Assembly: GCF_013358405.1 (NCBI RefSeq) | Contig: NZ_CP054836.1 | Span: forward strand, 2,356,001 to 2,420,000 | Source: Oricola thermophila | Lineage (GTDB): Bacteria > Pseudomonadota > Alphaproteobacteria > Rhizobiales > Rhizobiaceae | Reading direction: 5' to 3' | Length of the DNA: 64,000 nucleotides | In this document: positions 25,372-56,448 of the stretch, piece by piece | How the letters are laid out: each line of letters starts with the position of its first letter | Numbering within the stretch: the stretch's first letter is position 1 | Made by a program: the position numbers and the translations under genes | The notes under the pieces: generated by a model | What the model was told of the DNA's origin: nothing | What the model saw: the letters and a program-made list of their open reading frames with translations, nothing else | Databases searched by the model: none

Positions 25372-25383
25372 TACATCATCCGG

Positions 25384-26460: not shown

Positions 26461-26476
26461 ATGAATATTTATTCAT
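26461..26476. promoter_or_regulatory. SorC operator candidate, site 1
   Basis: ATGAATA-TT-TATTCAT, perfect 7-bp arms. It lies 69 bp upstream of the binding-protein gene. The same GAATA-N2-TATTC core occurs at 27673 and 30942. Confidence 0.65.
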
Positions 26477-26666
26477 CGCCGGAAGTTTTTTCATAGTAGA
26501 TACAGGGCGACGGTCAGTCAAGCGCAGAAACCTCATGGACGAGGCAAAACCGCGCCATTTTCCTTGGTATGCATAACTGCATATATATTCACGGTCGATT
26601 GCGCGAATTTCGCGAGTCGGGACCGATCCGGGCCGTCTCCGCAGCCCCGCAACGATGCAGATGCCG

Positions 26667-29152: not shown

Positions 29153-30112
29153 CTATCCTTTCCGGTCCAGGAGCCGTATTGCGCCTTCAACAATACCATC
29201 GGGCGACATGCCGAATTCGTCCAGCAGGAAATTGGCCGATCCGGTGGGAGCGAATATCCCCGGCACCCCCAGCATCTTCATCGGAACGGGATGTGTCTCG
29301 ACCACGACCTCGGCGACCGCGCTGCCTAGCCCGCCAAAGACTGTATGCTCCTCGCAGGTAATTATGGCACCGGTTTGCACTGCAGCTGCCCTGATCGCAT
29401 CAACATCGGCGGGCCGGACGGTTGCCATGTTTAGAACACGTGCCTGTATTCCACGGCCCTCCAGGATTTCGGCGGCCTGCAATGCTCGATGGGTGAGTAC
29501 GCCGTTGGCAATGATCGTCAGGTCGGTGCCCTCATGCAGAACATTTGCCTTCCCCACCTCGAATGCATGATCCTCGGGAAAGACATCCGGTACGCCGACC
29601 CGGCTCAGCCGCAGAAAACAGGGGCCATCATGCTGCGCGGCCCATTTCACCGCGGCTGCGGTTTCGATGCGGTCCGCCGGCGCGATTACCGGGATGTTCG
29701 GCAAGGCGCGTATCCAGGCGAAATCTTCAATGGAATGGTGGGTGGGACCAAGTTCGCCGTAGGCCATGCCCGAGCTGATCCCGACCAACTTCACATTTGC
29801 CAGGGAATAGGCGACATCGGCCTTGATCTGCTCGAGGGCGCGCCCCGTGAGAAACGGCGAAGCCCCGCAAACAAACGGCACCTTGCCCCCATTGGCCATG
29901 CCGGCACCAACACCGACCATGTTCTGCTCGGCAATTCCCACATTGATCAGCCGTTCGGGAAACTTCTCCCGGAACCCGCCAAGTTTCGACGACCCCACCG
30001 AGTCGTTGCAGACAGCAACGATATCCCTGTTCGCGCGCCCCAGTTCTTCAAGCGTTTGGGCGAAAGCATCGCGGCAGTCGTGAAGCTCAGATGCATCGAA
30101 AAGAGCACTCAT
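29153..30112 (-). CDS. Transketolase, C-terminal subunit
   Basis: 319-residue split transketolase subunit holding the pyrimidine-binding and C-terminal domains. The TPP-activating glutamate is in NVGIAEQNMVGVGAGMAN, with SGMAYGELGPTHHSIEDFAW and the C-terminal domain from about residue 190. It works as a heterodimer with the N-terminal subunit, whose stop codon overlaps its start by 4 bases. Two-carbon ketol transfer from a ketose phosphate to an aldose phosphate is expected. Dedicated split transketolases in sugar operons are known for D-apulose 4-phosphate (AptAB) and sulfofructose. The housekeeping enzyme is a single chain, so this pair is probably catabolic. Confidence 0.92.
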   Translation of the reverse strand: MSALFDASELHDCRDAFAQTLEELGRANRDIVAVCNDSVGSSKLGGFREKFPERLINVGIAEQNMVGVGAGMANGGKVPFVCGASPFLTGRALEQIKADVAYSLANVKLVGISSGMAYGELGPTHHSIEDFAWIRALPNIPVIAPADRIETAAAVKWAAQHDGPCFLRLSRVGVPDVFPEDHAFEVGKANVLHEGTDLTIIANGVLTHRALQAAEILEGRGIQARVLNMATVRPADVDAIRAAAVQTGAIITCEEHTVFGGLGSAVAEVVVETHPVPMKMLGVPGIFAPTGSANFLLDEFGMSPDGIVEGAIRLLDRKG

Positions 30113-30933
30113 TGGACCGCACCTTCGAGTTCGGCCATGGCCAGCTTGTACTGTTCCGCGTTCGGCACCTTGTGATGCCAGGCGACATTATCGGACATGA
30201 ACGATATGCCCTGCCCCTTGTTGGTGTGGGCTACCACGCATTTCGGCCTTCCGGCGGTCACCGCGTCACGCGACAATGCCCGGCATATCTGCTCCATGTC
30301 ATGACCGTCGACTTCCTCTACGGCCCAGCCGAACGCCGCGAGCTTGGGAGGCAGGGGGGCGATTTCGTTCGTGTCGGCCAGGCGAGCGCCCTGCTGCAGC
30401 CTGTTGTGGTCGATGATCAAGGTGAGATTATCCAATCCAAACTGGGAAGCAGCCATGATCGCCTCCCAATTGGAACCTTCCTGCATTTCGCCGTCCCCGG
30501 TAACGACGAAGGTCCGCCAGCCGTCTCCGTTCAGCCTTGCCGCCTTGGCCATACCGACGCCGACCGGCAGCCCATGCCCGAGCGGACCCGTGTTCGTCTC
30601 GACGCCGGGCACCTTGACCCGGTTCGGATGGCCGTTCAAACGGGAATACGGCTTCAGAAATGTGGAAATCTCGTCCCTGGGAATGAAGCCACGCTCTGCC
30701 AGCACAATGTAGAGTGCGAGCGCCGTGTGCCCCTTGCTGAGGACCAACCGATCCCGCTTCGGATCCAACGGCTCCTCCGGATTCACGGACATCGTGTGGA
30801 AATAGAGGACGGTCAGGATGTCGATCACCGACATTTCTCCGCCGATGTGGCCCGCTCCCGCCTCGTAGACAGCCTGGAGATCACGCCGCCTGACGCCGTT
30901 TGCAATCCTGCGGAGTTGTTCAATATCCATCAT
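30109..30933 (-). CDS. Transketolase, N-terminal TPP-binding subunit
   Basis: 274-residue subunit with the diphosphate-binding domain of transketolase. GHIGGEMSVIDILTVLYFHT and VLSKGHTALALYIVL are family signatures, and the TPP motif is GDGEMQEGSNWEAIMAASQF through to IIDHNRLQQG. First gene of the minus-strand sugar operon, with GAGG before the ATG pair at 30933/30930 and an operator-like palindrome only 9 bp upstream. Partner and pathway are as for the C-terminal subunit. Confidence 0.92.
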   Translation of the reverse strand: MMDIEQLRRIANGVRRRDLQAVYEAGAGHIGGEMSVIDILTVLYFHTMSVNPEEPLDPKRDRLVLSKGHTALALYIVLAERGFIPRDEISTFLKPYSRLNGHPNRVKVPGVETNTGPLGHGLPVGVGMAKAARLNGDGWRTFVVTGDGEMQEGSNWEAIMAASQFGLDNLTLIIDHNRLQQGARLADTNEIAPLPPKLAAFGWAVEEVDGHDMEQICRALSRDAVTAGRPKCVVAHTNKGQGISFMSDNVAWHHKVPNAEQYKLAMAELEGAVQ

Positions 30934-42243: not shown

Positions 42244-43167
42244 ATGACAGGGCCAATCGAGGGAACCGGTTTCGAGGTGCTGGACAAGGAGTTCAAGTCC
42301 CTGTTCGCCGCCCATATCCACGTGGAGCGCCTGTGGACAGGTGCGCGATGGAGCGAGGGACCCGCATGGTTCGCCGCCGGACGATATCTCGTCTGGTCGG
42401 ACATACCGAACAACAGGATGATGCGCTGGGACGAGACCGACGGGTCGGTCTCCGTGTTCAGGTTCCCCTCCAACAATTCCAACGGAAACACCGTCGACCG
42501 CCAGGGACGGCTCGTGACCTGCGAGCATCTCACGCGGCGGGTCACGCGGACGGAACACGACGGCTCGGTCACGGTTCTCGCCGACAGCTATGACGGCAGG
42601 CGGCTCAATTCACCCAATGACGTCGTCGTCTCGTCCGACGGCAGCATCTGGTTCACGGACCCGTTCTACGGCATCATGACCGACTACGAGGGCGACCTCA
42701 GCCCGATGGAACAGGACGGGTGCCACGTCTACCGGATCGATCCGGACGGGACGATCGACCGCGTGGCCGACGATTTCGTGCAGCCGAACGGGCTGGCGTT
42801 CTCGCCCGACGAGAGCCTTCTCTACATCGCCGACACCGGGAGAAGCCACGATGAGGACGGCCCCGCCCATATCCGGAAGTTCAAGGTCGACGCAAACGGT
42901 CGCCTCTCCGGCGGCGAAGTTTTCTCGGAGAGCACGAGCGGCCTTTACGACGGCTTCCGTGTCGATCGCGACGGACGGGTCTGGACCAGCGTCGCCGAGG
43001 GCGTGCACTGCATAAACCCGGACGGCGCCGTGATCGGGAAGATCAGGATTCCGGAAATCGTCGCGAATGTCACCTTCGGAGGCGCCAAGCGCAATCGCCT
43101 GTTCATCTGCGGCACAACCTCCCTGTACTCGGTCTACGTCTTCACCAACGGCACCACCCCGGGCTAG
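42244..43167 (+). CDS. SMP-30/gluconolactonase family lactonase
   Basis: 307-residue six-bladed beta-propeller hydrolase. The metal-site elements ARWSEGPAWFAAGRYLVWSD (Glu of the first blade), RRLNSPNDVVVSSDGSIWFT (Asn of SPND), and QPNGLAFSPDESLLYIADTG (Asn and Asp) are all present, so a Ca2+/Zn2+-dependent sugar lactonase is expected. It hydrolyses an aldonolactone such as xylono- or gluconolactone in the cytosol. It ends the importer 2 operon. With the SDR, XylD-like, XylX-like and aldehyde dehydrogenase genes at 50-56 kb, it would supply the lactonase step of a Weimberg-type pathway. Confidence 0.92.
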   Translation: MTGPIEGTGFEVLDKEFKSLFAAHIHVERLWTGARWSEGPAWFAAGRYLVWSDIPNNRMMRWDETDGSVSVFRFPSNNSNGNTVDRQGRLVTCEHLTRRVTRTEHDGSVTVLADSYDGRRLNSPNDVVVSSDGSIWFTDPFYGIMTDYEGDLSPMEQDGCHVYRIDPDGTIDRVADDFVQPNGLAFSPDESLLYIADTGRSHDEDGPAHIRKFKVDANGRLSGGEVFSESTSGLYDGFRVDRDGRVWTSVAEGVHCINPDGAVIGKIRIPEIVANVTFGGAKRNRLFICGTTSLYSVYVFTNGTTPG

Positions 43168-43373: not shown

Positions 43374-44108
43374 CTAAGCCGACATAGCCTGCAGGTTCAG
43401 GTGTTTCTGATGGTAGAGCTTGTTGGCACGATTGAGATGATCACGCATCCGGTTCGCGGCAGCTTCGCTGTCACCCGCAGCAATGGCATCGAGGATGCTG
43501 CGATGCTCTTCGAGCGTCAGTTCCTCGTTACCCGGCATGCGGACGAAATCAACGTGGAAATGCGCGAGCCAATTGAACAAGGCCGCGCTTAGCGACTCGA
43601 ATATCGGGTTCCCGCTCATCTTCGCGATACGGCGATGAAATTCGCCATCCTGGCGCAAAAACCGGTCGGGTTCCGCCTTGAGGGCTGCCTGCTTTTCCAG
43701 AGCCTCCCTCAGGGCCGCAATGTCGGCTTCCGTCCGGTTGCGGGCAGCGGCGCTCGCCATCGCCGTCTCGAAGGCGACGCGAGCGCCCTTGAGATGCTCC
43801 ATCGTGGTCGTCGAATGGGCGAGCAAATGCTGCATGGATTGGGCCATCTGCCCTACGAGCGTTTCAATCGACGGCTCGGCCACCGTCGGACGCTCCCCCT
43901 GGCGCACGCGGACCATGCCCATCCATTGCAGGTTCTGCATGGCTTCGCGGATCGCAGGACGACCCACTTCGTAGAGGTTCATGAGTTCGCGTTCTGATGG
44001 CAGCGGATCTCCGGGTTTCAGCCCGTTGGCCTGAATATAGGAGATGATGCGATCGTGCACTTCATCCGCAAGCTTGCGGCGTCGAATCGGCACTGGTTGA
44101 CTTGTCAT
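43374..44108 (-). CDS. GntR family regulator, FadR/FCD type
   Basis: About 244 residues from the ATG at 44108; a longer frame to 44282 lacks a sensible N-terminus. The winged helix has LADEVHDRIISYIQANGLKP, GDPLPSERELMNLYEVGRPA and IREAMQNLQWMGMV. The FCD domain has FRRQDGEFHRRIAK-type DGEFHRRI and EEHRSILDAIAAGDSEAA with conserved His for metal. The start resembles NanR-like members (PIRRRKLADEVHDRI). NanR binds GGTATA repeats, and GGTATAC-containing sites lie upstream of the two importers at 37416 and 44422. It is divergent from the MalE-like importer at 44517. Confidence 0.9.
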   Translation of the reverse strand: MTSQPVPIRRRKLADEVHDRIISYIQANGLKPGDPLPSERELMNLYEVGRPAIREAMQNLQWMGMVRVRQGERPTVAEPSIETLVGQMAQSMQHLLAHSTTTMEHLKGARVAFETAMASAAARNRTEADIAALREALEKQAALKAEPDRFLRQDGEFHRRIAKMSGNPIFESLSAALFNWLAHFHVDFVRMPGNEELTLEEHRSILDAIAAGDSEAAANRMRDHLNRANKLYHQKHLNLQAMSA

Positions 44109-44516
44109 ATGTGTCCATTGCCACGGTCCTGCGGCTCGTGCAACTGGTTCCAGGCTCCTTTCATCCCCTCGAAATTCGCCAGCTATAGGGTGCACCCCCA
44201 AGCGAATCCGGTCGACTTTCGCTCCCCCGATGGAAGCCTCGACCGCCAGCAACTTACGCAGCGGAACACAATCTGCCGGCATCTCCTTTATGGAGCTGAA
44301 ATATCACGCGAATCTCCGCCGGCCACGGTTCGAGCATCATGAGAAACCGCCTGCCCTTTCCACGGCCACGACCCAAAACACCGCCGCGCGTGCGCATGAC
44401 GGGCGACCGCGACCAATTCAAGGTATACTTATCATACCTGTTGACAAAATGATCATCAGCCCGGATGGTTGAAAATACAAAATACCAAATGCACAGAACC
44501 TTGGGAGGGAATTGTG
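44109..44516. promoter_or_regulatory. Divergent region with GntR-type operator at 44422-44438
   Basis: 408 bases without a credible gene. GGTATACTTATCATACC (44422-44438, 5-bp arms GGTAT/ATACC) is followed by TTGACA at 44441-44446. The ribosome binding site GGGAGGGA for the binding-protein gene is near 44502-44509. The operator closely matches the site before importer 2. No clear -10 box was found. Confidence 0.6.
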
Positions 44517-45755
44517 ATGAGGGTTGCAAAACTGGTTGGCGGCTCGCTGGCGGGCTGCCTCGCGCTTGGAGGCGCGGCACTGGCTGAAGATCTTACGGTC
44601 TGGACGCTGAACTATTCTTCGGAAGCGCAGGTTGCTGCCCTTGATGCCGCAGAAGCGAAATTCGAGGAGCTGCATCCGGGTGTGAACGTCGAAATCGTCA
44701 AGCGCGGCACCGACGAGCACAAGACCGCGCTTCGCGTCGCCACCGGATCCGACACGGGGCCGGATGTCTACTTCATGTGGGCCGGCCTTGGTCTCGGCGG
44801 TGAATACGTCAAAGCAGGCCTCAGCCTCGACCTTACCGGGTATTATGAAAAATACGGCTGGAAGGATCGCGTTTCCACGCCCTCGCTCGCCTTCGTCGAG
44901 GCCTTCGGCCCGGGAATGCACGGCGCGCCGTACCGGTTTACCGGCGAGGCCATCTACTACAACAAGGGTCTCTACGAGAAGGCGGGCATCACCGAGGAGC
45001 CGAAGACCTACGAGGAACTCGTCGCCGCGGCGAAGAAGCTCAAGGAAGCCGGCATACCCGCATTCACCTTCGGCGGCACCGTCAACTGGCACGTAATGCG
45101 GCTGATGGACGTCCTGCTGGAGACAACCTGCGGCGTCGAGACCCATGACGCGCTGACCGGCATGGAAGCGGACTGGAGCACAACGCCCTGCGCCGCCGAG
45201 GCATTCCAGGAACTGAAGATGTGGTCCACGGAGTACATCCTCGCGCCGTTCATGGGCATCGACAACCGGCAGTCGACCAACCTGTTCCTCACCAACCGGG
45301 CAGCCATGATGCTGGAAGGCGACTGGCAGGTGAACGTCATCAAGGAAGGCGCGAATCTGGACGATTTCGCGGTCTATCCGTTCCCCACCGGCACAGACCG
45401 TCTCTACGGCTTCGCTGAATATCTCTACATCTCGAACAAGTCGAAGAACCCGGATCTGGCCGCGGAATTCCTCGACATGTTCAGCTCCACCGACTTCCAG
45501 AACCAGATCAAGGGTGCTTTCGGCGCGTTGTCGGTCAACAAGGAGGTGGAACTCGGCGACGACGTGCCCGAATTGTACAAGACGTGGAAGGAAATCTTCG
45601 CCAACGCAAAGGGCACCTTTGTCAATGGCGACCAGGCTTTCCCGCTTGACGTGACGACCGAGTATTTCCGCATCATCAACGAGGTTGCATCTGGCAACAT
45701 GGAGCCGCAAGCGGCCGCCGATGCGATGCAGGCTTTCATCAGCAAGCGCTCGTGA
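44517..45755 (+). CDS. Extracellular solute-binding protein, family 1 (MalE/UgpB-like)
   Basis: 412-residue periplasmic oligosaccharide-type binding protein. The signal peptide is MRVAKLVGGSLAGCLALGGA, cleavage after ALA. The mature protein begins EDLTVWTLNYSSEAQVAALD and has FEELHPGVNVEIVKRG and TDEHKTALRVATGSDTGPDV. Two cysteines (TTCGVETHD and STTPCAAEAF) may form a disulfide. GGGAGGGA precedes the ATG at 44517. It serves two MalF/MalG-like permeases and the UgpC-like ATPase downstream. Because a cytoplasmic glycosidase gene lies in the same operon, a short glycoside rather than a free sugar is the likely ligand. Confidence 0.93.
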   Translation: MRVAKLVGGSLAGCLALGGAALAEDLTVWTLNYSSEAQVAALDAAEAKFEELHPGVNVEIVKRGTDEHKTALRVATGSDTGPDVYFMWAGLGLGGEYVKAGLSLDLTGYYEKYGWKDRVSTPSLAFVEAFGPGMHGAPYRFTGEAIYYNKGLYEKAGITEEPKTYEELVAAAKKLKEAGIPAFTFGGTVNWHVMRLMDVLLETTCGVETHDALTGMEADWSTTPCAAEAFQELKMWSTEYILAPFMGIDNRQSTNLFLTNRAAMMLEGDWQVNVIKEGANLDDFAVYPFPTGTDRLYGFAEYLYISNKSKNPDLAAEFLDMFSSTDFQNQIKGAFGALSVNKEVELGDDVPELYKTWKEIFANAKGTFVNGDQAFPLDVTTEYFRIINEVASGNMEPQAAADAMQAFISKRS

Positions 45756-45829: not shown

Positions 45830-46747
45830 GTGTTCCGGACTGACAGCATGTTCCACACTGCGTATCTGAAAACTCCCCGCGCCCAGGCCCTGATCCTGCT
45901 TGTGCCCGCTTTCGGCGCCTACACGGTATTCGCGATCTGGCCGATGATCGACGTCGTGATCCTGAGTTTCCAGCGTTGGAACGGGCTGTCTGCCGACCGC
46001 TTGTGGGTCGGGCTGGACAATTACCGTCACATCTTCACCCACGACCCGGTCTACTGGATCGCTTTCAACAACACCGTGATCTGGACCATCCTGTCGGTGA
46101 TCTTCCCCCCGTTTGTCGGACTGCTGCTCGCCCTGGGCCTGAACGAAAAGCTGTTCGCCCGCGGCACGATGCGCGCCATCTACTACCTGCCTGTCATCAT
46201 TGCCCCGATCGCCGTCGCCACGATGTGGCGCTGGATGTACGACCCGTTCTTCGGGCTCTTCAACCAGGTGATGACGAGCTTCGGCCTGCAGTCGTGGATT
46301 CAGGACTGGCTGGGCGATCGCGACGTCGCGCTCTATTCGATGTTCGTCGCCTTCACCTGGCAGAATGTCGGCTTCTCAATGGTGCTGTTCCTGGCCGGGC
46401 TACAGAACGTCGACCGTTCGCTCGTCGAGGCCGCGCGCATCGACGGCGCGGGCCGCTGGCAGGTGTTTCGCCATGTCACGCTGCCGGCGCTTCAGGTGAC
46501 AGTGACCATCGTCATCGTGCTGTCGACGATTTCCTCGCTGAAAGCATTCGACATCGTCTACGGGATGACCGGCGGCGGCCCGGCGCAATCGACGCAGATG
46601 CTGGCGCTGTGGGCGTTCACCCAGTCAATGCAGATCTTCGACTTCGGCCGCGGCTCGGCAATTTCCGTGACGCTGCTGCTCATCACCCTCGCAGTCGTCG
46701 TCCCCTACCTGCGCTGGTCGCAGAAGCGCGAGGAGGCAGCCCGGTGA
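45830..46747 (+). CDS. Sugar ABC transporter permease, MalF/LacF type
   Basis: About 300-305 residues with six membrane helices. The EAA loop, which docks the ATPase, is LVEAARIDGAGRWQVFRHVT followed by LPALQVTV. The N-terminus after either candidate start (GTG 45830 or ATG 45848) leads into TPRAQALILLVPAFGAYTVF, typical of the family. The GTG has AAGGCGGGG upstream, so it is kept here, but the ATG is possible. The stop overlaps the next permease start (GTGA). Confidence 0.92.
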   Translation: MFRTDSMFHTAYLKTPRAQALILLVPAFGAYTVFAIWPMIDVVILSFQRWNGLSADRLWVGLDNYRHIFTHDPVYWIAFNNTVIWTILSVIFPPFVGLLLALGLNEKLFARGTMRAIYYLPVIIAPIAVATMWRWMYDPFFGLFNQVMTSFGLQSWIQDWLGDRDVALYSMFVAFTWQNVGFSMVLFLAGLQNVDRSLVEAARIDGAGRWQVFRHVTLPALQVTVTIVIVLSTISSLKAFDIVYGMTGGGPAQSTQMLALWAFTQSMQIFDFGRGSAISVTLLLITLAVVVPYLRWSQKREEAAR

Positions 46748-47622
46748 CCGCATTGTCCGCTTCAACTGTCCGCGACGAGGAGAAGGTCGTGCGGCTGCGG
46801 CGCGACCCGCTGCTGATTGCGCTCTGGATTCTGCTCGCCGCAGTCGCGCTTGTCTGGATCGCGCCGTTCATCTTCATCACGTTCACGGCGCTCAAGACCG
46901 GCTCCGAGATCATGACCACCAACGCGTTCGCGCCGCCAAGCACGGTTGCCGTGGAGAATTTCTCCGGAGCATGGGTCAAGGGCAACTTCTCGACCACCTT
47001 CTTCAACAGCGTGATCATCACCGTGATCAAGGTGCCGCTCGGCCTGATGATATCGGCCATGGCTGCCTATGCACTGGCGCGCATCAAGCTGCGCTGGAAC
47101 AAGCTGCTCCTGGTTTTCGTCCTGTTCGGCGCCATGATCCCGTTCCAGGTCATGCTGGCGCCGCTCTTCACGCTGGTGAACTCGCTCGGCCTGATCGACA
47201 CCTATATCGGCATCATCCTCCCCTATCTTGCCTTCGGCGTTCCCTACCAGGTGTTCATTCTGCACGGCTTCTTCAATGCAATCCCCAAGGAACTGAGCGA
47301 GGCCGCGCTGATCGACGGGGCGTCGCATCTGACAACCTTCCGAAGGATATTCCTGCCCATCTCGCTGCCGGTTCTGGCCGCCTTGCTCATTCTCGATTTC
47401 GTGGCCACCTGGAACGAGTTCGCCATGGCGCTGGTCCTGCTTCAGGACAAGCACATGTGGACCCTTCCGCTGGGCCTGATGTCATTCCAGGGACAATTCT
47501 CCAACAATTACGGCCAGTTGAACGCGGCCATCGTCATGACGGTGATCCCTGCCGTCATCGTTTACCTGATCTTCCAACGCTACTTCGTTTCGGGCCTGAC
47601 ATCGGGCGCGATCAAAGGGTGA
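46744..47622 (+). CDS. Sugar ABC transporter permease, MalG/LacG type
   Basis: 292 residues from a GTG overlapping the previous stop; the longer open frame inside the upstream gene is a shadow. Six membrane helices. The EAA loop is LSEAALIDGASHLTTFRRIF, then LPISLPVLAALLIL, and the C-terminal segment ends YFVSGLTSGAIKG, as usual for MalG-like proteins. It forms the heterodimeric channel with the preceding permease. The glycosidase gene follows after 37 bp. Confidence 0.93.
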   Translation: MTALSASTVRDEEKVVRLRRDPLLIALWILLAAVALVWIAPFIFITFTALKTGSEIMTTNAFAPPSTVAVENFSGAWVKGNFSTTFFNSVIITVIKVPLGLMISAMAAYALARIKLRWNKLLLVFVLFGAMIPFQVMLAPLFTLVNSLGLIDTYIGIILPYLAFGVPYQVFILHGFFNAIPKELSEAALIDGASHLTTFRRIFLPISLPVLAALLILDFVATWNEFAMALVLLQDKHMWTLPLGLMSFQGQFSNNYGQLNAAIVMTVIPAVIVYLIFQRYFVSGLTSGAIKG

Positions 47623-47659: not shown

Positions 47660-49189
47660 ATGACCAATTCGACCGTCGCCCTGTGGGACATATTCGAGTT
47701 TTCCGCCCAGGGCCCCTCGAATGGCAATCCCTTCGTGGATGTCTCCTTCAAGGCGGAGTTCATTTTCGGCAACCGCCGGGTATACGTCCCGGGTTTCTAT
47801 GATGGCGACGGAACCTATCGCCTGCGTTTCAGCCCCGACACTGAGGGCGAGTGGCGGTTCGTTACCTCGTCCAACGCTGCCGAACTCGACGGGCTGGAAG
47901 GAACGCTGACGGCCGGGCCGCCTCGCAAGGGCGTTCGCGGTCCGGTCCGGGTGCAAAACCGGCATCATTTCGCCTATGCCGACGGAACCCCCTACCTGCC
48001 GTTCGGAACCACCTGCTATGCGTGGACCCACCAGCCGGAAGCGATGCAGGACGAGACGCTCGCCACGCTGGCCAAGGCCGGGTTCAACAAGATCCGGATG
48101 GCGGTGTTTCCCAAGCACTATCCATACAACTCCAATCCCGCCCTGCATAACATCTACGAGAAGACCGGCGACGGCGAGGCGGACATGGATTTCGACCGTC
48201 CCAACCCGGTGGCGTTCAGGCATTTCGAGAACCAGATCGGCAAGCTGGCGGAGATGGGAATCGAGGCGGACATCATCCTGTTCCATCCCTATGACCGGTG
48301 GGGCTATGCGGACATGACGCCCGAGCAGGATTGCCGTTTCCTCGAATATATCGCGGCGCGGATTTCGGCCTACCGCAATGTCTGGTGGTCGCTTGCCAAC
48401 GAGTATGACTTCCTGCTCAACACCAAGCCGATGGAACTGTGGCACAAGTTCTGCCATGTGCTGGAAGAGAACGACCACATGCAGCACCTGCGCTCGATCC
48501 ATAACGGCAACCCGGCCAAGAACTACAACCACCGGCTGCCCTGGATCACCCATGTCTGCATCCAGCATTGGGACGTCAAGCAGACGCCGCTGTGGATCGA
48601 GGCCTATGACAAGCCGGTCATCAACGACGAGCCCGAATACGAGGGAAATCTCTACCAGAGCTGGGGCAACATCTCGGCCGAGGAACTGACGCACCGGTTC
48701 TGGACCACGACGATGCGCGGCGGCTACGCCGGTCACGGCGAGACCTACAACGATCCCGACGACCTGATCTGGTGGGCCAAGGGCGGCAAGCTGCACGGCG
48801 AAGCGTGGAAGCGGATCAAGTGGATGCGCGAACTGCTCGAAGAGGACGTGAAACACGGGCTGACGATGCTGGGCGACTACTACGCCTTTCCCTATAGCCG
48901 CATTTCGGCATGCCAGGATGGCGAGGACGGAACACGGTACTTCTATTTCGGCGAGCACCAGCCCGCACGCTGGGCCACGGGATTGCCGAATGATGGCGGT
49001 CAGTACGACGTCGACCTGATCGACACATGGAACATGACCATCGAGCCGGCGAAGATCGTGGACGCATACTACGTGCCGCCGACGCGCCACGGCAATGTCA
49101 CCAGGGGCGGGGGCGTGGAATCCGATTTCGCCGTTGAACTGCCCGGGCGGCCGCGACTGGCTCTCAGGGTTCGGCCCCGCAAGACATAG
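47660..49189 (+). CDS. Cytoplasmic DUF5060/DUF4038 glycoside hydrolase
   Basis: 509-residue enzyme without a signal peptide. Residues 1-95 form a beta-sandwich (DUF5060-like: VALWDIFEFSAQGPSNGNPF, VPGFYDGDGTYRLRFSPDTE). Residues 100-420 form a TIM barrel of DUF4038 type (FAYADGTPYLPFGTTCYAWT). Clan GH-A catalytic residues are visible: acid/base E248 in VWWSLANEYDF and nucleophile E324 or E326 in KPVINDEPEYEG. A C-terminal DUF5605-like sandwich closes the chain. Related DUF4038 enzymes include GH140 apiosidases, but most members are uncharacterised. The position between importer permeases and their ATPase implies hydrolysis of an imported glycoside inside the cell. Confidence 0.85.
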   Translation: MTNSTVALWDIFEFSAQGPSNGNPFVDVSFKAEFIFGNRRVYVPGFYDGDGTYRLRFSPDTEGEWRFVTSSNAAELDGLEGTLTAGPPRKGVRGPVRVQNRHHFAYADGTPYLPFGTTCYAWTHQPEAMQDETLATLAKAGFNKIRMAVFPKHYPYNSNPALHNIYEKTGDGEADMDFDRPNPVAFRHFENQIGKLAEMGIEADIILFHPYDRWGYADMTPEQDCRFLEYIAARISAYRNVWWSLANEYDFLLNTKPMELWHKFCHVLEENDHMQHLRSIHNGNPAKNYNHRLPWITHVCIQHWDVKQTPLWIEAYDKPVINDEPEYEGNLYQSWGNISAEELTHRFWTTTMRGGYAGHGETYNDPDDLIWWAKGGKLHGEAWKRIKWMRELLEEDVKHGLTMLGDYYAFPYSRISACQDGEDGTRYFYFGEHQPARWATGLPNDGGQYDVDLIDTWNMTIEPAKIVDAYYVPPTRHGNVTRGGGVESDFAVELPGRPRLALRVRPRKT

Positions 49190-49201: not shown

Positions 49202-50269
49202 ATGGCGACGGTCGAACTTTCAGCTGTTCGAAAATCCTACGGTGCCGCGGAAGTCATCCACGGCATCGACATCGACATCGAGGATGGCGAATTCGTCATC
49301 CTTGTCGGCCCGTCCGGCTGCGGCAAGTCCACCTTGCTTCGGATGATCGCCGGGCTCGAGGAAATCAACGCCGGAACGATCAGGATCGGCGAAAGGGTGG
49401 TCAACAACCTGACGCCGAAAGAGCGCAACATCGCGATGGTTTTCCAGAACTACGCGCTTTACCCGCAAATGACGGTGGCGCAGAATCTCGGCTTCTCTCT
49501 GGAGATTTCGGGGCTGGCCAAGGCCGACATCAAAACCAAGGTCGAGGACACCGCCGAGATACTGGGTCTGACGCCGCTATTGTCGCGCAAACCTTCGCAG
49601 TTGTCGGGCGGCCAGCGTCAGCGGGTCGCGATGGGCCGGGCGATCGTACGCGACCCCGATGTCTTTCTGTTCGACGAACCGCTGTCCAACCTCGATGCCA
49701 ACCTGCGCGTCCAGATGCGCGCGGAAATCAAGGCCCTGCACCAGCGGCTGGGCTCCACCATCGTCTATGTCACGCATGACCAGATCGAAGCGATGACGAT
49801 GGCGGACCGGATCGTCGTGCTGCGCGCCGGGGTGGTCGAACAGGTCGGCACACCGCTCGATCTCTACGAGCGGCCCGCGAATGTTTTCGTGGCAAGCTTT
49901 CTCGGATCGCCTTCGATGAACTTCCTGCACGGACGGCTTGCCAATGGAGGCGAACCGACCCTGATCCTGTCCGACGATTGCAGGCTGCGTCTGCATTCGA
50001 GCTTCAAGGCGAGACCCGGGGAGAAGGTCATCATGGGCATACGCCCGCAAGACATCGTCGAGGACCAGGAGAACGGCACGGCCGCAACCGTTCTCGTGGT
50101 CGAACCGACCGGCGCCGACACCCATGTGACCGTTGAATTGGCCGGCAATAGGCTGACCTGCGTGCTGCCGGCCCATTTCAACAAGGCTGTCGGCGACGAG
50201 ATCATGCTGTCGGCGGCGACGCCGAAAGCGCATTTCTTCGATGCCGACAGCCAGACCAGGCTCGATTGA
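49202..50269 (+). CDS. ABC transporter ATPase, UgpC/MsmX (MalK) type
   Basis: 355-residue MalK-like ATPase. Walker A GPSGCGKST (residues 38-46), Q-loop FQNYALYPQM, signature LSGGQRQRVAMGRA, Walker B VFLFDEPLSNLDA, switch histidine in VYVTHDQIEAMT. A TOBE-type regulatory domain follows from about residue 235 (FVASFLGSPSMNFLHGRLAN). It closes the operon of the importer begun at 44517 and converges with the SDR gene. Members of this group can serve several MalFG-type permeases, so other importers in the cell may share it. Confidence 0.95.
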   Translation: MATVELSAVRKSYGAAEVIHGIDIDIEDGEFVILVGPSGCGKSTLLRMIAGLEEINAGTIRIGERVVNNLTPKERNIAMVFQNYALYPQMTVAQNLGFSLEISGLAKADIKTKVEDTAEILGLTPLLSRKPSQLSGGQRQRVAMGRAIVRDPDVFLFDEPLSNLDANLRVQMRAEIKALHQRLGSTIVYVTHDQIEAMTMADRIVVLRAGVVEQVGTPLDLYERPANVFVASFLGSPSMNFLHGRLANGGEPTLILSDDCRLRLHSSFKARPGEKVIMGIRPQDIVEDQENGTAATVLVVEPTGADTHVTVELAGNRLTCVLPAHFNKAVGDEIMLSAATPKAHFFDADSQTRLD

Positions 50270-50338: not shown

Positions 50339-51148
50339 CTAGTCGCGCAGTTCGACCGTGAACTCGCCGTCAATCGGCCAGTTGATGCCCGCCGAGGCGC
50401 CGCCATCCACCCGGATGACCTGGCCGGTCAGGAAAGCAGCCGCGGGCGAAGCCAGGAAGATCGCCGCGCCGATCAGGTCTTCCACCGCGCCCATGCGGCC
50501 CATCGGGGTAACGGTCTTGTTCCAGGCCTGCAGGTTCGGATCGCTCCAGAGCTTCCCGGTCAGGTCGGTCAGGATGAACCCCGGCGCCACCTCGTTCACC
50601 CGCACACCGTGCCTGCCCCATTCGAGCGCCATGACACGGGTCATCGAGGACAGGGCGGACTTCGACATGCCGTAGGGAGCAACCTGGGCCAGCGACCCGT
50701 AGGTCGACAGGCTGCCGATATTGATCTGGCTGCCGCTGCCCTGCTTCACCATCTGCCTGCCGACCGTCTGCGCCATGAAGAACGCGCCGCGCAGATTGGT
50801 GTCGATGATGCGGTCGAAATCCTCCGGCGTGTAGTCCAGAGCGGGCATCCGCTTGTTGATGCCCGCGCAATTGACCAGCGTGTCGATGCGTCCGTGATCG
50901 GCGATGACGGCATCGACGCAGGCGGAAATCGCGTCCGTGTCGGCGACATCGCAGGGTTGGTACGTCATAGCGAAGGGCGCGGGCGTGACGGCATCGCAGG
51001 CCGCACGCAGCGTATCCTCGTTCCGGCCGGTGATGATGACCTTCGCCCCGCGGGACAGGAACGCTTTCGCGATGGCAAGCCCTATGCCCCTGCTGCCGCC
51101 TGAAACCAGAACCACGGTCCCCGATACATCGAAAAGCGCGTCCGTCAT
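50339..51148 (-). CDS. SDR family oxidoreductase (sugar or deoxy-sugar-acid dehydrogenase)
   Basis: 269-residue classical short-chain dehydrogenase. The cofactor site is VSGGSRGIGLAIAKAFLSRG near residue 14, NCAGIN follows, and the catalytic Ser-Tyr-Lys are in GSLSTYGSLAQVAPYGMSKS. The form resembles KduD/gluconate 5-dehydrogenase types. The ATG at 51148 overlaps the aldehyde dehydrogenase stop (ATGA); a longer open frame upstream is a shadow. As last gene of a Weimberg-type set it may oxidise a pentose such as D-xylose or L-arabinose to the lactone, although oxidation of an intermediate is equally possible. Confidence 0.9.
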   Translation of the reverse strand: MTDALFDVSGTVVLVSGGSRGIGLAIAKAFLSRGAKVIITGRNEDTLRAACDAVTPAPFAMTYQPCDVADTDAISACVDAVIADHGRIDTLVNCAGINKRMPALDYTPEDFDRIIDTNLRGAFFMAQTVGRQMVKQGSGSQINIGSLSTYGSLAQVAPYGMSKSALSSMTRVMALEWGRHGVRVNEVAPGFILTDLTGKLWSDPNLQAWNKTVTPMGRMGAVEDLIGAAIFLASPAAAFLTGQVIRVDGGASAGINWPIDGEFTVELRD

Positions 51149-52668
51149 GACAGGCCTCCCCCTTGCGCAAGGTCTTCCGGCAGGACGTCCGGCGGGATGT
51201 TCTGGTAGCAGACCGGACGCAGGAAGCGCCGGATCGAGAGCGTGCCGACGGAGGTCGCGCCGAAATTGGTCGATGCCGGATACGGGCCGCCATGAACCAT
51301 CGCGTCGCAAACCTCGACCCCGGTGGGGAACCCGTTGGCCAGCAGGCGGCCGGCCTTGCGTTCGAGGATCGGCATGAGCGCCCTGGCCTGCGCGCTGTCG
51401 GCGTCGTCCATGTGCAGCGTGCAGGTCAGCTGCCCGCGCAACGATCTTGCGACGGCGATCACCTCGTCCATGTCGCGGGCGGTGACGATCAGGCCGAGCG
51501 GACCGAACACCTCCTCGCCCAGTTCCGCGTTGGCCAGCCATTCGGCGGCCGTGGTGGAGAACAGGTAGGGCGTCGCGTTACGCATGTCGCAAGTGGTGGT
51601 CAGCACGTCCTGCACGCCCTTGGTGGCGGCGATCCGATCGGTGCCCCGGTGATAGGCGTCGGCGATGCCGTCGGTCAGCATGGTCTGCGCACCGGTCTTT
51701 TCGAGAGCGGCCCGCGCGGCGTCGGCGAAAGCCTTTGCCTCCGGTCCGTCGATGACAACCGCCACGCCCGGATTGGTGCAGAACTGCCCTGCCCCCATGG
51801 TCAGCGAGCCGGCCCAGCCGGCAGCGATCTCGCCGCCACGGCTGGCCAGCGCGCCGTCGAGGATGAACATCGGATTGACCGAGCCCAGTTCGCCGAAAAA
51901 CGGAATGGGTTCCGGACGGGCCGCGCAAAGGTCGAAGAGTGCCCGCCCGCCGGCGAGCGAGCCGGTAAAGCCGACGGCGCGGATCAGCGGATGCTGTACC
52001 AGCGCCTGCCCGACTGCACGGTCGCCGCCCTGTATCTGGCTGAACACGCCGGGATGGACGCCACGGGCCCTGATCGCCGCGTCGATCGCCTGGGCCACGA
52101 GATCCGAGGTGCCGGGATGGGCCGAATGGCCCTTGACCACGACCGGGCAGCCGGCAGCCAGCGCGGCGGCGGTGTCGCCGCCGGCGGTGGAGAAGGCCAG
52201 CGGAAAGTTCGAGGCGCCGAACACGGCCACCGGGCCGATTGGGCGCTGCATCATGCGGATGTCCGGACGCGGCAGCGGCGCGCGGTCCGGCAGCGCCGGA
52301 TCGTGGCGCCGGTCGAGGTAGTCACCCGCCTCGACATGGTCCGCGAACTGGTTGAGCTGCCCCGTTGTCCGGCCGCGTTCTCCGACCAGCCGGGCTTCCG
52401 GCAGGCCGGTTTCCCGGCAGCCCATTGCGGTGATCTCGTCGCCGCGCGCATTGATCTCGCTGGCGATGGCGCGCAGGAACGCGGCGCGTTCTGCGCGGGA
52501 CGAATAGCCGTAGGACCGGAATGCCTCTTCCGCGGCCCGCGCGGCCTTGTCGACGAGACCGACGGTGCCGACAGCAAATGTATCGGCATCCCCCGCAACC
52601 GGCCGGTTTGTGAATGTCTTCTCGCCGCCAATCCATTGGCCGGCTATCAGGTGAGTGCCTCTAAGCAT
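51145..52668 (-). CDS. Alpha-ketoglutaric semialdehyde (2,5-dioxovalerate) dehydrogenase
   Basis: 507-residue aldehyde dehydrogenase. Catalytic C297 (MGAGQFCTNPG) and E260 (PIPFFGELGSVNP) are present, with the cofactor loop FTGSLAGGRAL. The segments FGASNFPLAFSTAGGDTAAA and GCPVVVKGHSAHPGTSDLVA are typical of the ketoglutarate-semialdehyde group used in oxidative pentose and hydroxyproline breakdown. It oxidises 2,5-dioxopentanoate to 2-oxoglutarate, the last step of the Weimberg route. It follows the XylX-like gene by 19 bp and overlaps the SDR gene. Substrate assignment is supported by the operon. Confidence 0.92.
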   Translation of the reverse strand: MLRGTHLIAGQWIGGEKTFTNRPVAGDADTFAVGTVGLVDKAARAAEEAFRSYGYSSRAERAAFLRAIASEINARGDEITAMGCRETGLPEARLVGERGRTTGQLNQFADHVEAGDYLDRRHDPALPDRAPLPRPDIRMMQRPIGPVAVFGASNFPLAFSTAGGDTAAALAAGCPVVVKGHSAHPGTSDLVAQAIDAAIRARGVHPGVFSQIQGGDRAVGQALVQHPLIRAVGFTGSLAGGRALFDLCAARPEPIPFFGELGSVNPMFILDGALASRGGEIAAGWAGSLTMGAGQFCTNPGVAVVIDGPEAKAFADAARAALEKTGAQTMLTDGIADAYHRGTDRIAATKGVQDVLTTTCDMRNATPYLFSTTAAEWLANAELGEEVFGPLGLIVTARDMDEVIAVARSLRGQLTCTLHMDDADSAQARALMPILERKAGRLLANGFPTGVEVCDAMVHGGPYPASTNFGATSVGTLSIRRFLRPVCYQNIPPDVLPEDLAQGGGLS

Positions 52669-52687
52669 TGTTCCGTCTTTCCGTGTT

Positions 52688-53827
52688 CTAAAGCAGGCCG
52701 CGACGCGCCAGGTTGCGCATCAGTTCGCGTATTCCGAATGTCCATTCCGCGCACTCGGTAGACAGGCGAACGGTGTTGGTCAGGCAGCCCAGCATCGGCG
52801 ACGAGATGGACACGACATCGCCGAGCTTGTGGGTGAATCCCTCGCCGGGGACGTCGCGGTCCCGGGTCGGCGCGAAGAGTGTGCCGAGGAAAAGCATGAA
52901 GCCGTCCGGGTACTGGTGATGACGGCCAATGGTCTGGCGGACCAGGTCGAGAGGATCGCGGCTGATCTCCTTCATGGAGGACGAGCCCTCCAGCCTGTAG
53001 CCGTCGATGCCGGTCACGGTCAGGTCCAGCTCGGCAGCGCGCACGTCGTCCAGCGAGAAACCGTCGTCGAACAGGCGGATCATCGGGCCGATGGCGCAGG
53101 AGGCGTTGTTGTCCTTGGCCTTGGAAAGCAGCAGGGCCGAACGCCCCTCGACGTCGCGCAGGTTCACATCGTTGCCGAGGGTCGCGCCGACGATCCGGCC
53201 GGCTGACGACACCGCCAGCACCACCTCCGGTTCCGGGTTGTTCCAGTTCGAGATCGGATGCAGCCCGACATCCGCGCCGGGTCCCACCGAAGACAGGGTT
53301 TGCGATTTCGAGAAAACCTCGGCATCGGGCCCTATGCCGACCTCGAGATATTGCGACCACAGCCCTTCGCCGATCAGCGCCGCCTTGACCTTCGCCGCCT
53401 CGTCCGATCCGGCCTTGATGTTGTTCAGGCTGTCGCCGATCACCGCCCTGACGCGTTCGCGGATGGCGGAAGCCTTCTGGACGTCGCCGGCAGCCTGTTC
53501 CTCGATAACCCGCTCGACCATCGACCTGGCAAACGTTACCCCGCAGGCCTTGATCGCCTGCAGGTCGCAAGGGGCGAGAAAATGCGTCTGGCCGGCGTCC
53601 CCTGCCCTTGCATTCAAAATCGCGTCGACCGTGCCAAGGGACGGGCCTTCGGCGGTGCGCACGTAATCCGCAGGTTCGGCCATTTCGCAGATATCGCGGA
53701 CCAGCGGTGCGTTCCTTGCGGTGATGTCGATCACCTGCCCGTCGCGGACCGTCACCACTGCGGGCCCTTGTATCTCGGCATTCCAGACGCGCCCCAGCAG
53801 TGTCGCGTTTTCCGGCAGAATGTTCAT
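52688..53827 (-). CDS. 2-keto-3-deoxy-pentonate dehydratase, XylX-like (FAH family)
   Basis: 379-residue fumarylacetoacetate hydrolase-fold enzyme. GPGADVGLHPISNWNNPEPE carries the metal-binding acidic pair (NPEPE), followed by GATLGNDVNLRDVEGRSALL and SPMLGCLTNTVRLS. Length and pattern match Caulobacter XylX-type dehydratases, which turn 2-keto-3-deoxy-pentonate into 2,5-dioxovalerate. The ATG at 53827 has GAGGAG 6 bases upstream; a longer open frame is not supported. It lies between the XylD-like gene and the semialdehyde dehydrogenase gene, exactly in reaction order. Confidence 0.9.
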   Translation of the reverse strand: MNILPENATLLGRVWNAEIQGPAVVTVRDGQVIDITARNAPLVRDICEMAEPADYVRTAEGPSLGTVDAILNARAGDAGQTHFLAPCDLQAIKACGVTFARSMVERVIEEQAAGDVQKASAIRERVRAVIGDSLNNIKAGSDEAAKVKAALIGEGLWSQYLEVGIGPDAEVFSKSQTLSSVGPGADVGLHPISNWNNPEPEVVLAVSSAGRIVGATLGNDVNLRDVEGRSALLLSKAKDNNASCAIGPMIRLFDDGFSLDDVRAAELDLTVTGIDGYRLEGSSSMKEISRDPLDLVRQTIGRHHQYPDGFMLFLGTLFAPTRDRDVPGEGFTHKLGDVVSISSPMLGCLTNTVRLSTECAEWTFGIRELMRNLARRGLL

Positions 53828-53921
53828 TGCGCGCTCCTCGTTGCAGTGCGGGGATGCGACTGGCGCGCGCTGCCACATGCGCCCGTCCCGGCAGCCCTCC
53901 TCCCCGTCGGCCGCGGATTTC

Positions 53922-55715
53922 CTAGTGGCTGTGACGCGGCATGAGCCGTCTGACCTTCTGGTACGCGGTCGCCAGTTCCAGGCACCCCCCGTCGGCCAGT
54001 TGCCCCACATTGGTGCGGTAGATCTCCTGCCACGGCGTCTGGTTCGTCAGTTCGGGCGGCACCCAGTTCGCGCTCCGCTCGGCCCATTCCTCGTCGTCAA
54101 CCAAGGCGTCGAGCGTACGCGCATTCAGGTCGAGCCTGACCCTGTCGCCGGTCTTCAGAAGCGCCAGTCCTCCGCCGACAACGGCTTCCGGCGAGGCATT
54201 GAGAACCGAGGGGCTCTCCGACGTACCGGACTGTCGGCCGTCCCCGACTGTCGGCAGATGCATGATTCCCGCCTTGAGAATGGCGTCCGGCGGCTGCATG
54301 TTCACGACCTCGGCCGACCCCGGATAGCCGACGCAACCGGTCCCGCGGATGAACAGAATGCAGTTTTCGTCGATCTCGAGCGCCGGATCGTTCAGCGCCG
54401 CATGATAGTGTTCAGGGCCATCGAAGACGACCGCCCTTGCCTCGTAGACATTCTCGGCATCCGGCCTGTTCAGATAGCGCTCCCGAAAGGCGTCGGAGAT
54501 CACGCTGGTTTTCATGAGGGCGGAATCGAACAGGTTTCCGCTCAGTACGAGGAATCCGGCATTCTCGCGCAGCGGCTTGTCGACGGTCGCGATCACATCG
54601 TGGTCACGGCTGCGGCAGCCGTCGAGGGTATCGCCGAGCGTTTTCCCCGAGACCGTCACCACGTCCCTGTGCAGCAGGCCCGCCTGGTCGAGCTCACCCA
54701 TCACCGCCGGGATTCCGCCTGCCCTGTAGAAGCTCTCGCCGAGATACCTGCCGGATGGCTGCATGTTGAGCAGAAGCGGCAATTCGTAGCCGATCTCCTG
54801 CCAGTCATGGACGTCCAGTTCGACGCCGACGTGACGAGCGATGGCCTGCAAATGGGGAGGCGCGTTGGTGGAACCGCCAATCGCGGTATTCACCCGGATG
54901 GCGTTCTCGAATGCCTTTCGCGTCAACACCTTCGACGGTGTCAGATCCTCGGCAACCATGGCGACGATACGCTTGCCGGTTTCGTAGGCCATGTTCATGC
55001 GCTCGCGAAACGGCGCCGGGATCGCCGCGCAACCTGGCAGGCTCATTCCGAGGGCCTCGGCCATCGCGTTCATCGTGCTGGCCGTGCCCATCGTGTTGCA
55101 GTGCCCCAGCGACGGGGCCGAGGCGCAGGCGCGGCTGATGAACTCGTCATAGTCGATCTCGCCCTCGGCAAGCAGGCGGCGACTTTCCCAGATGATGGTA
55201 CCCGAGCCGGCCAGCTCGCCCTTCCACCAGCCGTCGAGCATGGGTCCGCCGGACAGCACGATCGCCGGCAGATCGACCGTGGATGCGCCCATCAGCATCG
55301 CCGGCGTGGTCTTGTCGCAACCCGTCGTCAGGACGACCCCGTCAAGCGGGTAGCCATGCAGGACCTCGACCAGGCTCAGATAGGCGAGGTTGCGATCCAG
55401 CGCCGCCGTCGGACGTTTGCCGTTCTCGTGGATCGGGTGGACCGGGAATTCCATCGGAATTCCGCCGCCGTCGCGGATTCCCGCCTTGATCCGGTGCATC
55501 AGGAACACATGGATCTTGTTGCAGGGCGCGAGATCCGACCCGGTCTGCGCAATACCGATGATCGGTCGCCCGGACTGCAGTTCCTCGCGCGTGTATTCGT
55601 GATTCTGATAACGCTCCAGGTAGAGCGCGGTCATTCCGGGATTGGTCCGGTCGTCGAACCAGTCACGAGAGCGCAGTCTTGCCTTCGCACCTTTCTCCGG
55701 GTCGTCGTCATCCAT
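53922..55715 (-). CDS. xylD: Sugar-acid dehydratase, XylD-like (IlvD/Edd family)
   Basis: 597-residue Fe-S dehydratase. C65 (LAPCNKIH), C133 (TTGCDKTTPA) and C206 (SLGHCNTMGTAST) are the cluster ligands expected of pentonate dehydratases, and SPSVLNASPEAVVGGGLALL holds the active-site serine. LRSRDWFDDRTNPGMTALYL and PMEFPVHPIHENGKRPTAAL are near-identical in style to Caulobacter D-xylonate dehydratase. It removes water from D-xylonate or a similar aldonate to give the 2-keto-3-deoxy acid. The ATG at 55715 overlaps the GntR stop by 8 bases, with CTGGAG upstream. Several sugar acids are accepted by this family. Confidence 0.93.
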   Translation of the reverse strand: MDDDDPEKGAKARLRSRDWFDDRTNPGMTALYLERYQNHEYTREELQSGRPIIGIAQTGSDLAPCNKIHVFLMHRIKAGIRDGGGIPMEFPVHPIHENGKRPTAALDRNLAYLSLVEVLHGYPLDGVVLTTGCDKTTPAMLMGASTVDLPAIVLSGGPMLDGWWKGELAGSGTIIWESRRLLAEGEIDYDEFISRACASAPSLGHCNTMGTASTMNAMAEALGMSLPGCAAIPAPFRERMNMAYETGKRIVAMVAEDLTPSKVLTRKAFENAIRVNTAIGGSTNAPPHLQAIARHVGVELDVHDWQEIGYELPLLLNMQPSGRYLGESFYRAGGIPAVMGELDQAGLLHRDVVTVSGKTLGDTLDGCRSRDHDVIATVDKPLRENAGFLVLSGNLFDSALMKTSVISDAFRERYLNRPDAENVYEARAVVFDGPEHYHAALNDPALEIDENCILFIRGTGCVGYPGSAEVVNMQPPDAILKAGIMHLPTVGDGRQSGTSESPSVLNASPEAVVGGGLALLKTGDRVRLDLNARTLDALVDDEEWAERSANWVPPELTNQTPWQEIYRTNVGQLADGGCLELATAYQKVRRLMPRHSH

Positions 55716-56448
55716 CCGTTTGCTCCAGCTTCCTGTCCGCCGGAGCTGTCGGATCATTCCTGCTCTCTTCCTGCACGTAGATGCTCCTGATGTTCTCGAT
55801 CGCCGTACGCAGGTGCTCCTTCAATCTCGTGGATACGAGTTCCTTGTCGCGCCGGCGAAGGCCCTCGACGATCCGTCCGTGCTCGATCATCGCCGCCTCG
55901 CGGGCAGCCTTGTGCTGCGCAGACAGGAACCGGGCACGCCACAGCCGGGCGTGGTATTGCTTGTGTGTCTTGATCAGCGAGAGGTTCTTGGTCGAAGCGA
56001 CGATCGCCTCATGGAATCCCATGTCGATCTGGAAGAACTCAATGGGATCCGGGTTGTCCACGGTGGCGAGCATGGTCTGGTGCATCGACTCGATCTCGTC
56101 GACCTCATCGTCCGAGGCCTCGTCACAGGCACACTCCCCCGCGAGCGCCTCCAGCGCGGATTGAACCAGCAGCAGATGAGTCACCTCGACCAGCGACGGC
56201 TTCGCGACAATCGGACTGCGGGCAGGCGACATCTCCACCAGGCCTTCCGCCTCGAGCATCAGCAATGCCTCGCGAAGGGGAGTACGACTGACGCCCAATG
56301 CAGCCGAGGTTTCCCGTTCAGGGATGTTGTCGCCGGGCTTCAGGTCTCCCAGCAGGATCTGCTGGCGCAGGATGTCCGCAATCTGATCGCCAAGACGCTG
56401 GCGCGGCAGGGTTGGAAGATCGATCGACGTAGATTTCTTCGGTGCCAC
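55708..56448 (-). CDS. GntR family regulator, FCD type
   Basis: 246-residue FadR-like regulator. The winged helix has LGDQIADILRQQILLGDLKP, GDNIPERETSAALGVSRTPL and REALLMLEAEGLVEM. The FCD domain has GFHEAIVASTKNL-type FHEAIVAS and RIVEGLRRRDKELV. First gene of the minus-strand Weimberg operon, overlapping xylD, and divergent from the TRAP transporter. Two GGTATACC palindromes lie in the shared region (56520 and 56553), so one regulator may control both pentonate breakdown and the TRAP importer in answer to a sugar acid. Confidence 0.91.
   Translation of the reverse strand: MAPKKSTSIDLPTLPRQRLGDQIADILRQQILLGDLKPGDNIPERETSAALGVSRTPLREALLMLEAEGLVEMSPARSPIVAKPSLVEVTHLLLVQSALEALAGECACDEASDDEVDEIESMHQTMLATVDNPDPIEFFQIDMGFHEAIVASTKNLSLIKTHKQYHARLWRARFLSAQHKAAREAAMIEHGRIVEGLRRRDKELVSTRLKEHLRTAIENIRSIYVQEESRNDPTAPADRKLEQTDG

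Follow-up and report, generated by a model that had tools for sequence, protein, structure and literature searches.

Which compound is brought into the cell by an ABC importer operon that carries a glycoside hydrolase gene among its own genes, and which bond does this hydrolase cut? The question is raised by a locus in the window, i.e., the 64,000-nucleotide stretch of the Oricola thermophila genome that was analysed here. According to PMC10602602, apiose is a constituent of pectin and also of over 1,200 plant metabolites. Routes for the use of free apiose are already known. In the literature searched, no description turned up of the way in which bacteria lacking the RG-II machinery of Bacteroides obtain apiose, and the import-first setting for an apiosidase that is described below seems to be new.

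Judging from gene content and gene order, we regard it as likely that the operon imports an apioside, that its cytoplasmic hydrolase frees D-apiose, and that catabolism of the sugar follows. A wider proposal is one that we believe only slightly more than we doubt: the DUF5060-PF13204-DUF5605 proteins would form a GH family of their own, consisting of cytoplasmic apiosidases with Glu as acid/base, and would provide a dedicated import-first entry in several phyla, which in some of the Rhizobiaceae would belong to an apiose regulon with a GntR operator of its own. If this is true, thousands of unnamed proteins would at once acquire a function along with a substrate, a regulator, and an operator; whether rhizobia and gut Lachnospiraceae use apiosides would become directly testable; and an import-first apioside economy would exist in soil, rhizosphere, and gut bacteria.

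The importer operon and its hydrolase

Table 1. Features of the window that are discussed in the text. Percentages are identities to the homologs named.
Feature	Position	Strand	Remarks
RbsCAB-type monosaccharide importer, AptAB cluster	22887..26536	-	Homologs in E. coli apiose cluster
RbsCAB permease	22887..23885	-	37% to E. coli
RbsCAB ATPase	23887..25371	-	36% to E. coli
RbsCAB binding protein	25430..26536	-	29% to E. coli
DeoR/LsrR-type (SorC family) regulator	26667..27644	-	40% to E. coli apiose-cluster regulator
AplK-like FGGY kinase	27686..29149	-	42% to E. coli AplK, E 5e-112
AptB-like split transketolase subunit B	29153..30112	-	41% to E. coli AptB, E 6e-59
AptA-like split transketolase subunit A	30109..30933	-	45% to E. 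coli SE15 AptA, E 1e-72
SMP-30 lactonase, Weimberg-type set	42244..43167	+	Near importer operon
GntR/FadR regulator	43374..44282	-	NF003011 NanR subfamily; divergent from importer operon
Putative operator/promoter ATCATACCTGTTGACAAAATGAT	44431..44453	+	Sole other genomic copy in ApnL cluster
MalE-type substrate-binding protein	44532..45755	+	61% to pRL12 homolog
MalF-type permease	45830..46747	+	76% to pRL12
MalG-type permease	46744..47622	+	79% to pRL12
Apiosidase candidate (hydrolase)	47660..49189	+	DUF5060-PF13204-DUF5605 protein, predicted cytoplasmic
UgpC/MalK-type ATPase	49202..50269	+	NF008653 504 bits, cut-off 432
Weimberg-type set: SDR, aldehyde dehydrogenase, FAH-type dehydratase, IlvD-type dehydratase	50339..55757	-	Converging on operon

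The hydrolase gene starts 37 bp past the MalG-type permease gene and ends 12 bp short of the ATPase gene (Table 1). Thus the coordinates bear out the original prediction, which placed it between the permease and ATPase genes of a MalEFG-like importer. The importer is of the MalEFGK type (CUT1), with an SBP_bac_1 binding protein, two BPD_transp_1 permeases, and a MalK-type ATPase that has OB/TOBE domains. The ORF of the binding protein opens with a TTG codon at 44469; the likelier start is the ATG at 44532, which is preceded by GGGAGG. The position of the hydrolase gene within the importer genes is conserved in 22 of the 23 Rhizobiaceae loci compared.

The hydrolase ORF begins with ATG and encodes a product of 509 amino acids. 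Pfam finds in it DUF5060 (residues 5–72, 75.4 bits), PF13204, which is named “Apiosidase-like, catalytic domain” (residues 99–367, 67.8 bits with the cut-off at 26.5), and DUF5605 (residues 426–505, 49.8 bits). A genome-wide search gave no other PF13204 match. The protein was aligned with 40 relatives (41 sequences in total, 42–85% identity). N247, E248, D323, E324, and E328 do not vary in this alignment, and dozens of other residues are likewise invariant down to 42% identity. Asn-Glu is the usual acid/base motif of clan GH-A. We regard E248 as the candidate acid/base and E324 as the candidate nucleophile; E324 was chosen rather than E326 because the latter varies among the 41 sequences. No signal peptide is visible at the start of the protein or in the 20 in-frame codons preceding the ATG, since DUF5060 begins already at residue 5 and these codons encode a charged, non-hydrophobic stretch.

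Most of what had been said about this protein beforehand therefore holds: the three-domain layout, the absence of a visible signal peptide (for the reasons just given), and intact clan GH-A residues, of which E248 is invariant in the alignment and also matched in the solved structure 4n0r. Of the pair E324/E326 named as the second catalytic position, the invariant E324 is retained and the variable E326 is dropped. The same prediction envisaged intact uptake of a glycoside and its hydrolysis inside the cell, and this is supported by the lack of a visible signal peptide together with the importer order in the 22 loci. The gene anatomy backs such a reading, in which the binding protein, the two permeases, and the ATPase would import a small apiose-containing glycoside intact. 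The imported compound would be an apiosyl disaccharide or another small glycoside. In the cytoplasm, a retaining barrel of the clan GH-A type, in which E248 would be the acid/base and E324 the nucleophile, would cleave the apiosyl bond and release D-apiose.

Relation to GH140 apiosidases

The window hydrolase has the PF13204-type catalytic barrel in common with the beta-apiosidase BT1012 (structures 3kzs and 5msy) and with 8t9w, which is named “Apiosidase”. BT1012 is assigned to GH140. A 2014 paper describes PF13204 as a family of TIM-barrel hydrolases and gives, for the position of the catalytic Asp, Asp in 82% and Glu in 17.3% of the members. BT1012 serves the breakdown of RG-II in Bacteroides, where it is reported to cut Api from GalA (PMC7939467).

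There are also differences. Where GH140 proteins have the catalytic Asp of a GGD motif, the window hydrolase has Asn247-Glu248; when the two proteins are aligned via a bridging protein, E248 stands opposite Asp187 of BT1012. GH140-type proteins carry PF12904 and have no DUF5060, whereas the window hydrolase has DUF5605 and DUF5060. Its PF13204 score is only 67.8 bits, compared with 255 bits for a GH140-like protein of a related genome. Neither phmmer nor a profile of the 41 sequences reached 3kzs, 5msy, or 8t9w in the PDB at E<=1; these searches found 4n0r, and the other hits at this threshold were unrelated. The link to GH140 is seen solely via the Pfam profile or via the bridging protein, from which the solved PF13204 members reached include 8t9w, 3kzs, and 5msy.

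Because Glu stands in place of Asp, the C-terminal domain is another one, DUF5060 is extra, and direct similarity is lacking, we describe the hydrolase as GH140-like and do not file it in GH140. Beta-apiosidase activity is predicted for it, with apiose as the sugar in the -1 subsite, as in GH140. The comparison with GH140 made in the original prediction is thus sound with respect to the PF13204 domain, but it does not extend to the Asp signature and the domain layout. The hint towards apiose that it contained is much strengthened by the gene context.

The closest solved relative is 4n0r, a “putative glycoside hydrolase” (residues 6–462, E 2.7e-108). It keeps both catalytic positions, with NE and DE matching N247-E248 and D323-E324. 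Among the papers listed in the literature searched, there was no function for 4n0r and no characterised apiosidase of the DUF5060 type. A cluster of Lactobacillus jensenii with rhamnosidase, DUF4038, and DUF5060 genes likewise combines such genes with transporters and an isomerase (PMC10711310). It is read there as amylase-like, GH13/GH14, a reading that the family evidence does not support.

Linkage to D-apiose pathways

We use a scheme of two D-apiose routes with the names ApsD, ApdH, and ApsI; ApnL, OiaX, and OiaK are NCBIfam names. A 2018 paper by Carter and others is said to deal with D-apiose pathways. The first three names and the two-route scheme also rest on PMC11747546 and PMC13001218. 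Genes homologous to those of the published apiose clusters (AplK/AptA/AptB of E. coli SE15, ApnL of Rhizobium, and the cluster of Rhodobacteraceae strain LCG007) are present in the window or elsewhere in the genome. Growth on D-apiose was reported for carriers of such clusters (PMC13001218, PMC11747546). As far as these reports describe them, the clusters concern free D-apiose; a glycoside importer and a cytoplasmic hydrolase are added here. The D-apiose freed by the hydrolase would enter an oxidative route (the ApnL cluster) and/or a kinase-transketolase route (AplK, AptA, AptB).

The second route is represented in the window itself, where the AptAB cluster has the gene set of E. coli SE15: AptA, AptB, AplK, an RbsABC importer, and a SorC-type regulator (Table 1). 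Carriers of the SE15 cluster grow on D-apiose (PMC13001218). Neither a D-apiose isomerase nor the SDRs proposed to replace it were found beside the window AptAB cluster, and the FucI-like isomerase candidate has just a partial homolog (31%) in the genome. Between this cluster and the importer operon, at 32413–42223 on the plus strand, two more monosaccharide importers of the RbsABC type are encoded.

For the oxidative route, a first clue came from Rhizobium. On pRL12 of R. johnstonii, the five genes of the importer operon have the same order as in the window (61, 76, 79, 63, and 63% identity). They are preceded by an RbsA-type importer, a Gfo/Idh/MocA dehydrogenase, a 620-aa “hypothetical protein”, DhaK, and DhaL. 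The “hypothetical protein” (L086:3198-5060) is the D-apionate lactonase ApnL (NCBIfam NF049900, 1060.9 bits, cut-off 750). The gene order in TAL182 is as on pRL12. Aureimonas AU20 is a counter-example to the apiose linkage: the five genes are conserved there, but aromatic-degradation genes adjoin them.

O. thermophila has an ApnL of its own (900 bits against the cut-off of 750), encoded in a cluster 0.6 Mb from the window. This cluster includes a Gfo/Idh dehydrogenase, which shares 64% identity with that encoded next to ApnL on pRL12, and an RbsABC importer with a binding protein 47.5% identical to its counterpart in the E. coli apiose cluster. Two further proteins have OiaX (418.9 bits) and OiaK (426.1 bits) as their best families, both scores being under the NCBIfam cut-off of 700. 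From its position the Gfo/Idh gene may be ApsD-like, and the NAD-binding gene that separates the importer from the OiaX-like gene may likewise be ApdH-like; neither has a specific NCBIfam hit. GH36 and GH42 genes, an SDR gene, and kinase-like and aldolase-like genes adjoin the cluster (L135:1775-8262), the last two being identified by eye in the sequence.

The importer operon and the distant ApnL cluster are connected in two ways. The closest paralog of the window GntR regulator in the genome adjoins ApnL (43%, 194 bits), and the next best match has 68 bits. Furthermore, a 23-bp pattern, ATCATACC-N-GTTGACAA-N-ATGAT, occurs at up to three mismatches in two places of the 4.0-Mb genome and its reversed version in none; this search is a test of rarity and not a blind one, because the pattern was defined from the same two sites. 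One copy lies in the window, approximately 80–100 bp ahead of the binding-protein gene, and the other between the ApdH-like and OiaX-like genes, upstream of the latter.

In 33 related loci we found 11 distinct sites at up to four mismatches, that of the O. thermophila ApnL cluster included. All 11 are situated about 60–210 bp upstream of either a binding-protein gene (8) or an OiaX-like gene (3), and L131 has the site at both places. With up to five mismatches allowed, three single-base shuffles of the same bases gave 0, 3, and 2 sites. At that threshold the site is absent from 19 of the 33 loci, and L125 has only an out-of-place one; the AptAB-linked loci are among those without a properly placed site. 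The importer operon and the ApnL cluster are thus tied by a rare common site and by GntR regulators that are closest paralogs, and we infer that regulators and site belong together. If so, the paralogous regulators would join importer, hydrolase, and oxidative pathway in one regulon.

Linkage with D-apiose genes was assessed more widely by tblastn with a panel of markers over 107 hydrolase loci, of which 106 are distinct because L006 duplicates L111. In 19 of the 106 loci, AptA and AptB genes lie next to each other on the same strand, and 10 have an ApnL-family gene, with no overlap, so that 29 distinct loci have one or the other within about 10 kb. By record titles, these 29 include members of Pseudomonadota, Bacillota, Actinomycetota, and Planctomycetota. 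The remaining 77 have neither nearby, and since many of the loci are short contigs, 29 of 106 is a lower bound. At E<=1e-15, the counts of individual markers among the 107 loci are 21 for AptA, 22 for AptB, 20 for AplK, and 10 for ApnL. The length and start of the AptA match in L023 mark it as a classical full-length transketolase, which was excluded from the 19 pairs. Three ApnL-like genes of Arthrobacter, located directly 3' of the hydrolase gene, are distant: in L027, where the gene was scored, the match reaches 181 bits and falls short of the ApnL cut-off. In a tree built without other split transketolases and with a classical transketolase as root, E. coli AptA groups among the linked AptA proteins, with some low internal supports.

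A protein of the L-fucose-isomerase fold (PF02952; for example L129:11444-12910, minus strand) is encoded in 8 of the 107 loci, five of which have AptAB pairs (L028, L051, L129, L130, L132). It is a candidate for an alternative D-apiose isomerase. L127 has an AP_endonuc_2-type isomerase, and L129 and L130 have SDR2-like genes.

Within a sample of 394 Rhizobiaceae genomes, the hydrolase gene is patchy, being present in 24 genomes of 13 genera and absent from 370. ApnL was found in 109 of the 394 genomes (above the NCBIfam cut-off in 83), namely in 20 of the 24 with the hydrolase and in 89 of the 370 without it. AptA-like proteins (E<=1e-80) are present in 20 of the 24 and 53 of the 370; this threshold was set after the scores had been seen, and 113 genomes pass 1e-50. 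At least one of the two markers is found in all 24 genomes with the hydrolase, compared with 119 of the 370 without it (Fisher p 7e-12, which treats genomes as independent, with phylogeny uncorrected). Five congeners of O. thermophila lack the hydrolase, ApnL, and the AptA-like gene altogether.

Co-occurrence alone could stem from genome size; linkage is harder to explain in this way. Within 15 kb of the hydrolase gene, ApnL is encoded in 6 of the 24 genomes and AptAB in 4. The latter are exactly the four genomes that lack ApnL (G544, G647, G670, G719), each of which encodes a split transketolase pair together with an FGGY kinase no more than about 8 kb away. The other 14 have neither within 15 kb, including O. 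thermophila, where AptA is 16.7 kb away.

A protein search gave at least 8000 homologs of the hydrolase, the best being 85% identical; their sources include, among the matches listed, Hoeflea, Frigidibacter, Celeribacter, Devosia, Rhizobium, Sinorhizobium, and Mesorhizobium. A scan of genome contigs, from which 80 of 122 loci were kept, covers several phyla; Paenibacillus, Arthrobacter, and gut Lachnospiraceae are among the sources. Matches are found in 91 plasmid records, 80 of them from Rhizobium. In a thinly spread sample of the class, the hydrolase is present in one of 385 genomes, that of O. thermophila. Thus the original statement that the setting is barely described is right for the searchable literature, in which “DUF4038” is rare, but the arrangement is common in genomes.

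Devosia soli (L033) has two tandem DUF5060 genes (8427–9938 and 10001–11503), 44–47% and 63% identical to that of the window. An extra N-terminal segment of approximately 80–100 residues may be present in some members from Paenibacillus, Cohnella, and Arthrobacter (L012, L015, L016, L022, L025, and others). The rough script behind this used a poor motif, and it suggests that the N-terminus may be extended in some members from Bacillota and Actinomycetota.

Alternative substrates and activities

The context shows only that apiose feeds into a pathway, and the hydrolase might cut another bond of an imported apioside, for example one between rhamnose and apiose, with apiose being freed by something else. 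In RG-II degradation BT1012 releases Rha-Api, which is then cut by an alpha-rhamnosidase, so that more than one bond is involved, as described in PMC7939467. Homologs of chosen GH78, GH43, GH127, and GH42 proteins are encoded in 11, 9, 7, and 7 of the 107 loci, respectively. However, the catalytic domain of the hydrolase belongs to the apiosidase-like family PF13204, and in the 23 Rhizobiaceae loci L111–L133 a panel of five glycosidase families detected a second glycosidase only in L124. We therefore consider cleavage of another bond unlikely, and prefer release of D-apiose by the hydrolase itself.

Whole RG-II is not favoured as the substrate of this strain. GH28 has no match in the genome, and the rhamnosidase family has one, which is partial (27.2 bits against a cut-off of 24.5). 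Therefore scavenged small apiosides are probably the likelier source.

Another possible clue is the Weimberg-type pentose oxidation genes, which are the neighbours of the hydrolase operon in the window and for which the hydrolase could release D-xylose or L-arabinose. We sought four of the five genes of this set, and all four queries recovered their own genes in the window. Yet none of these markers (IlvD, FAH, SMP-30, and aldehyde dehydrogenase) was found in the 107 hydrolase loci at E<=1e-15, and at E<=1e-3 there are only two weak aldehyde dehydrogenase matches (L087, L125). Moreover, the 23-bp site connects the importer operon to the ApnL cluster and not to the Weimberg-type set. As its markers are absent from the related loci, we rejected this set as a clue to the substrate, and release of xylose or arabinose appears very improbable beside release of D-apiose.

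Finally, it is hardly credible that the protein is a catalytically dead barrel with a sugar-binding or regulatory role in the importer: the GH140-type Asp is indeed missing, but the Asn-Glu motif of clan GH-A is present, and E248, E324, and dozens more residues are invariant across the alignment down to its most distant members.

The window also has genes for a TRAP transporter, an FAH hydrolase, an enolase-superfamily dehydratase, an SDR, and a MaoC protein (56518–63847). The FAH hydrolase has 412 bits to NF053535, whose cut-off is 500. This gene set looks like a deoxysugar-acid route.
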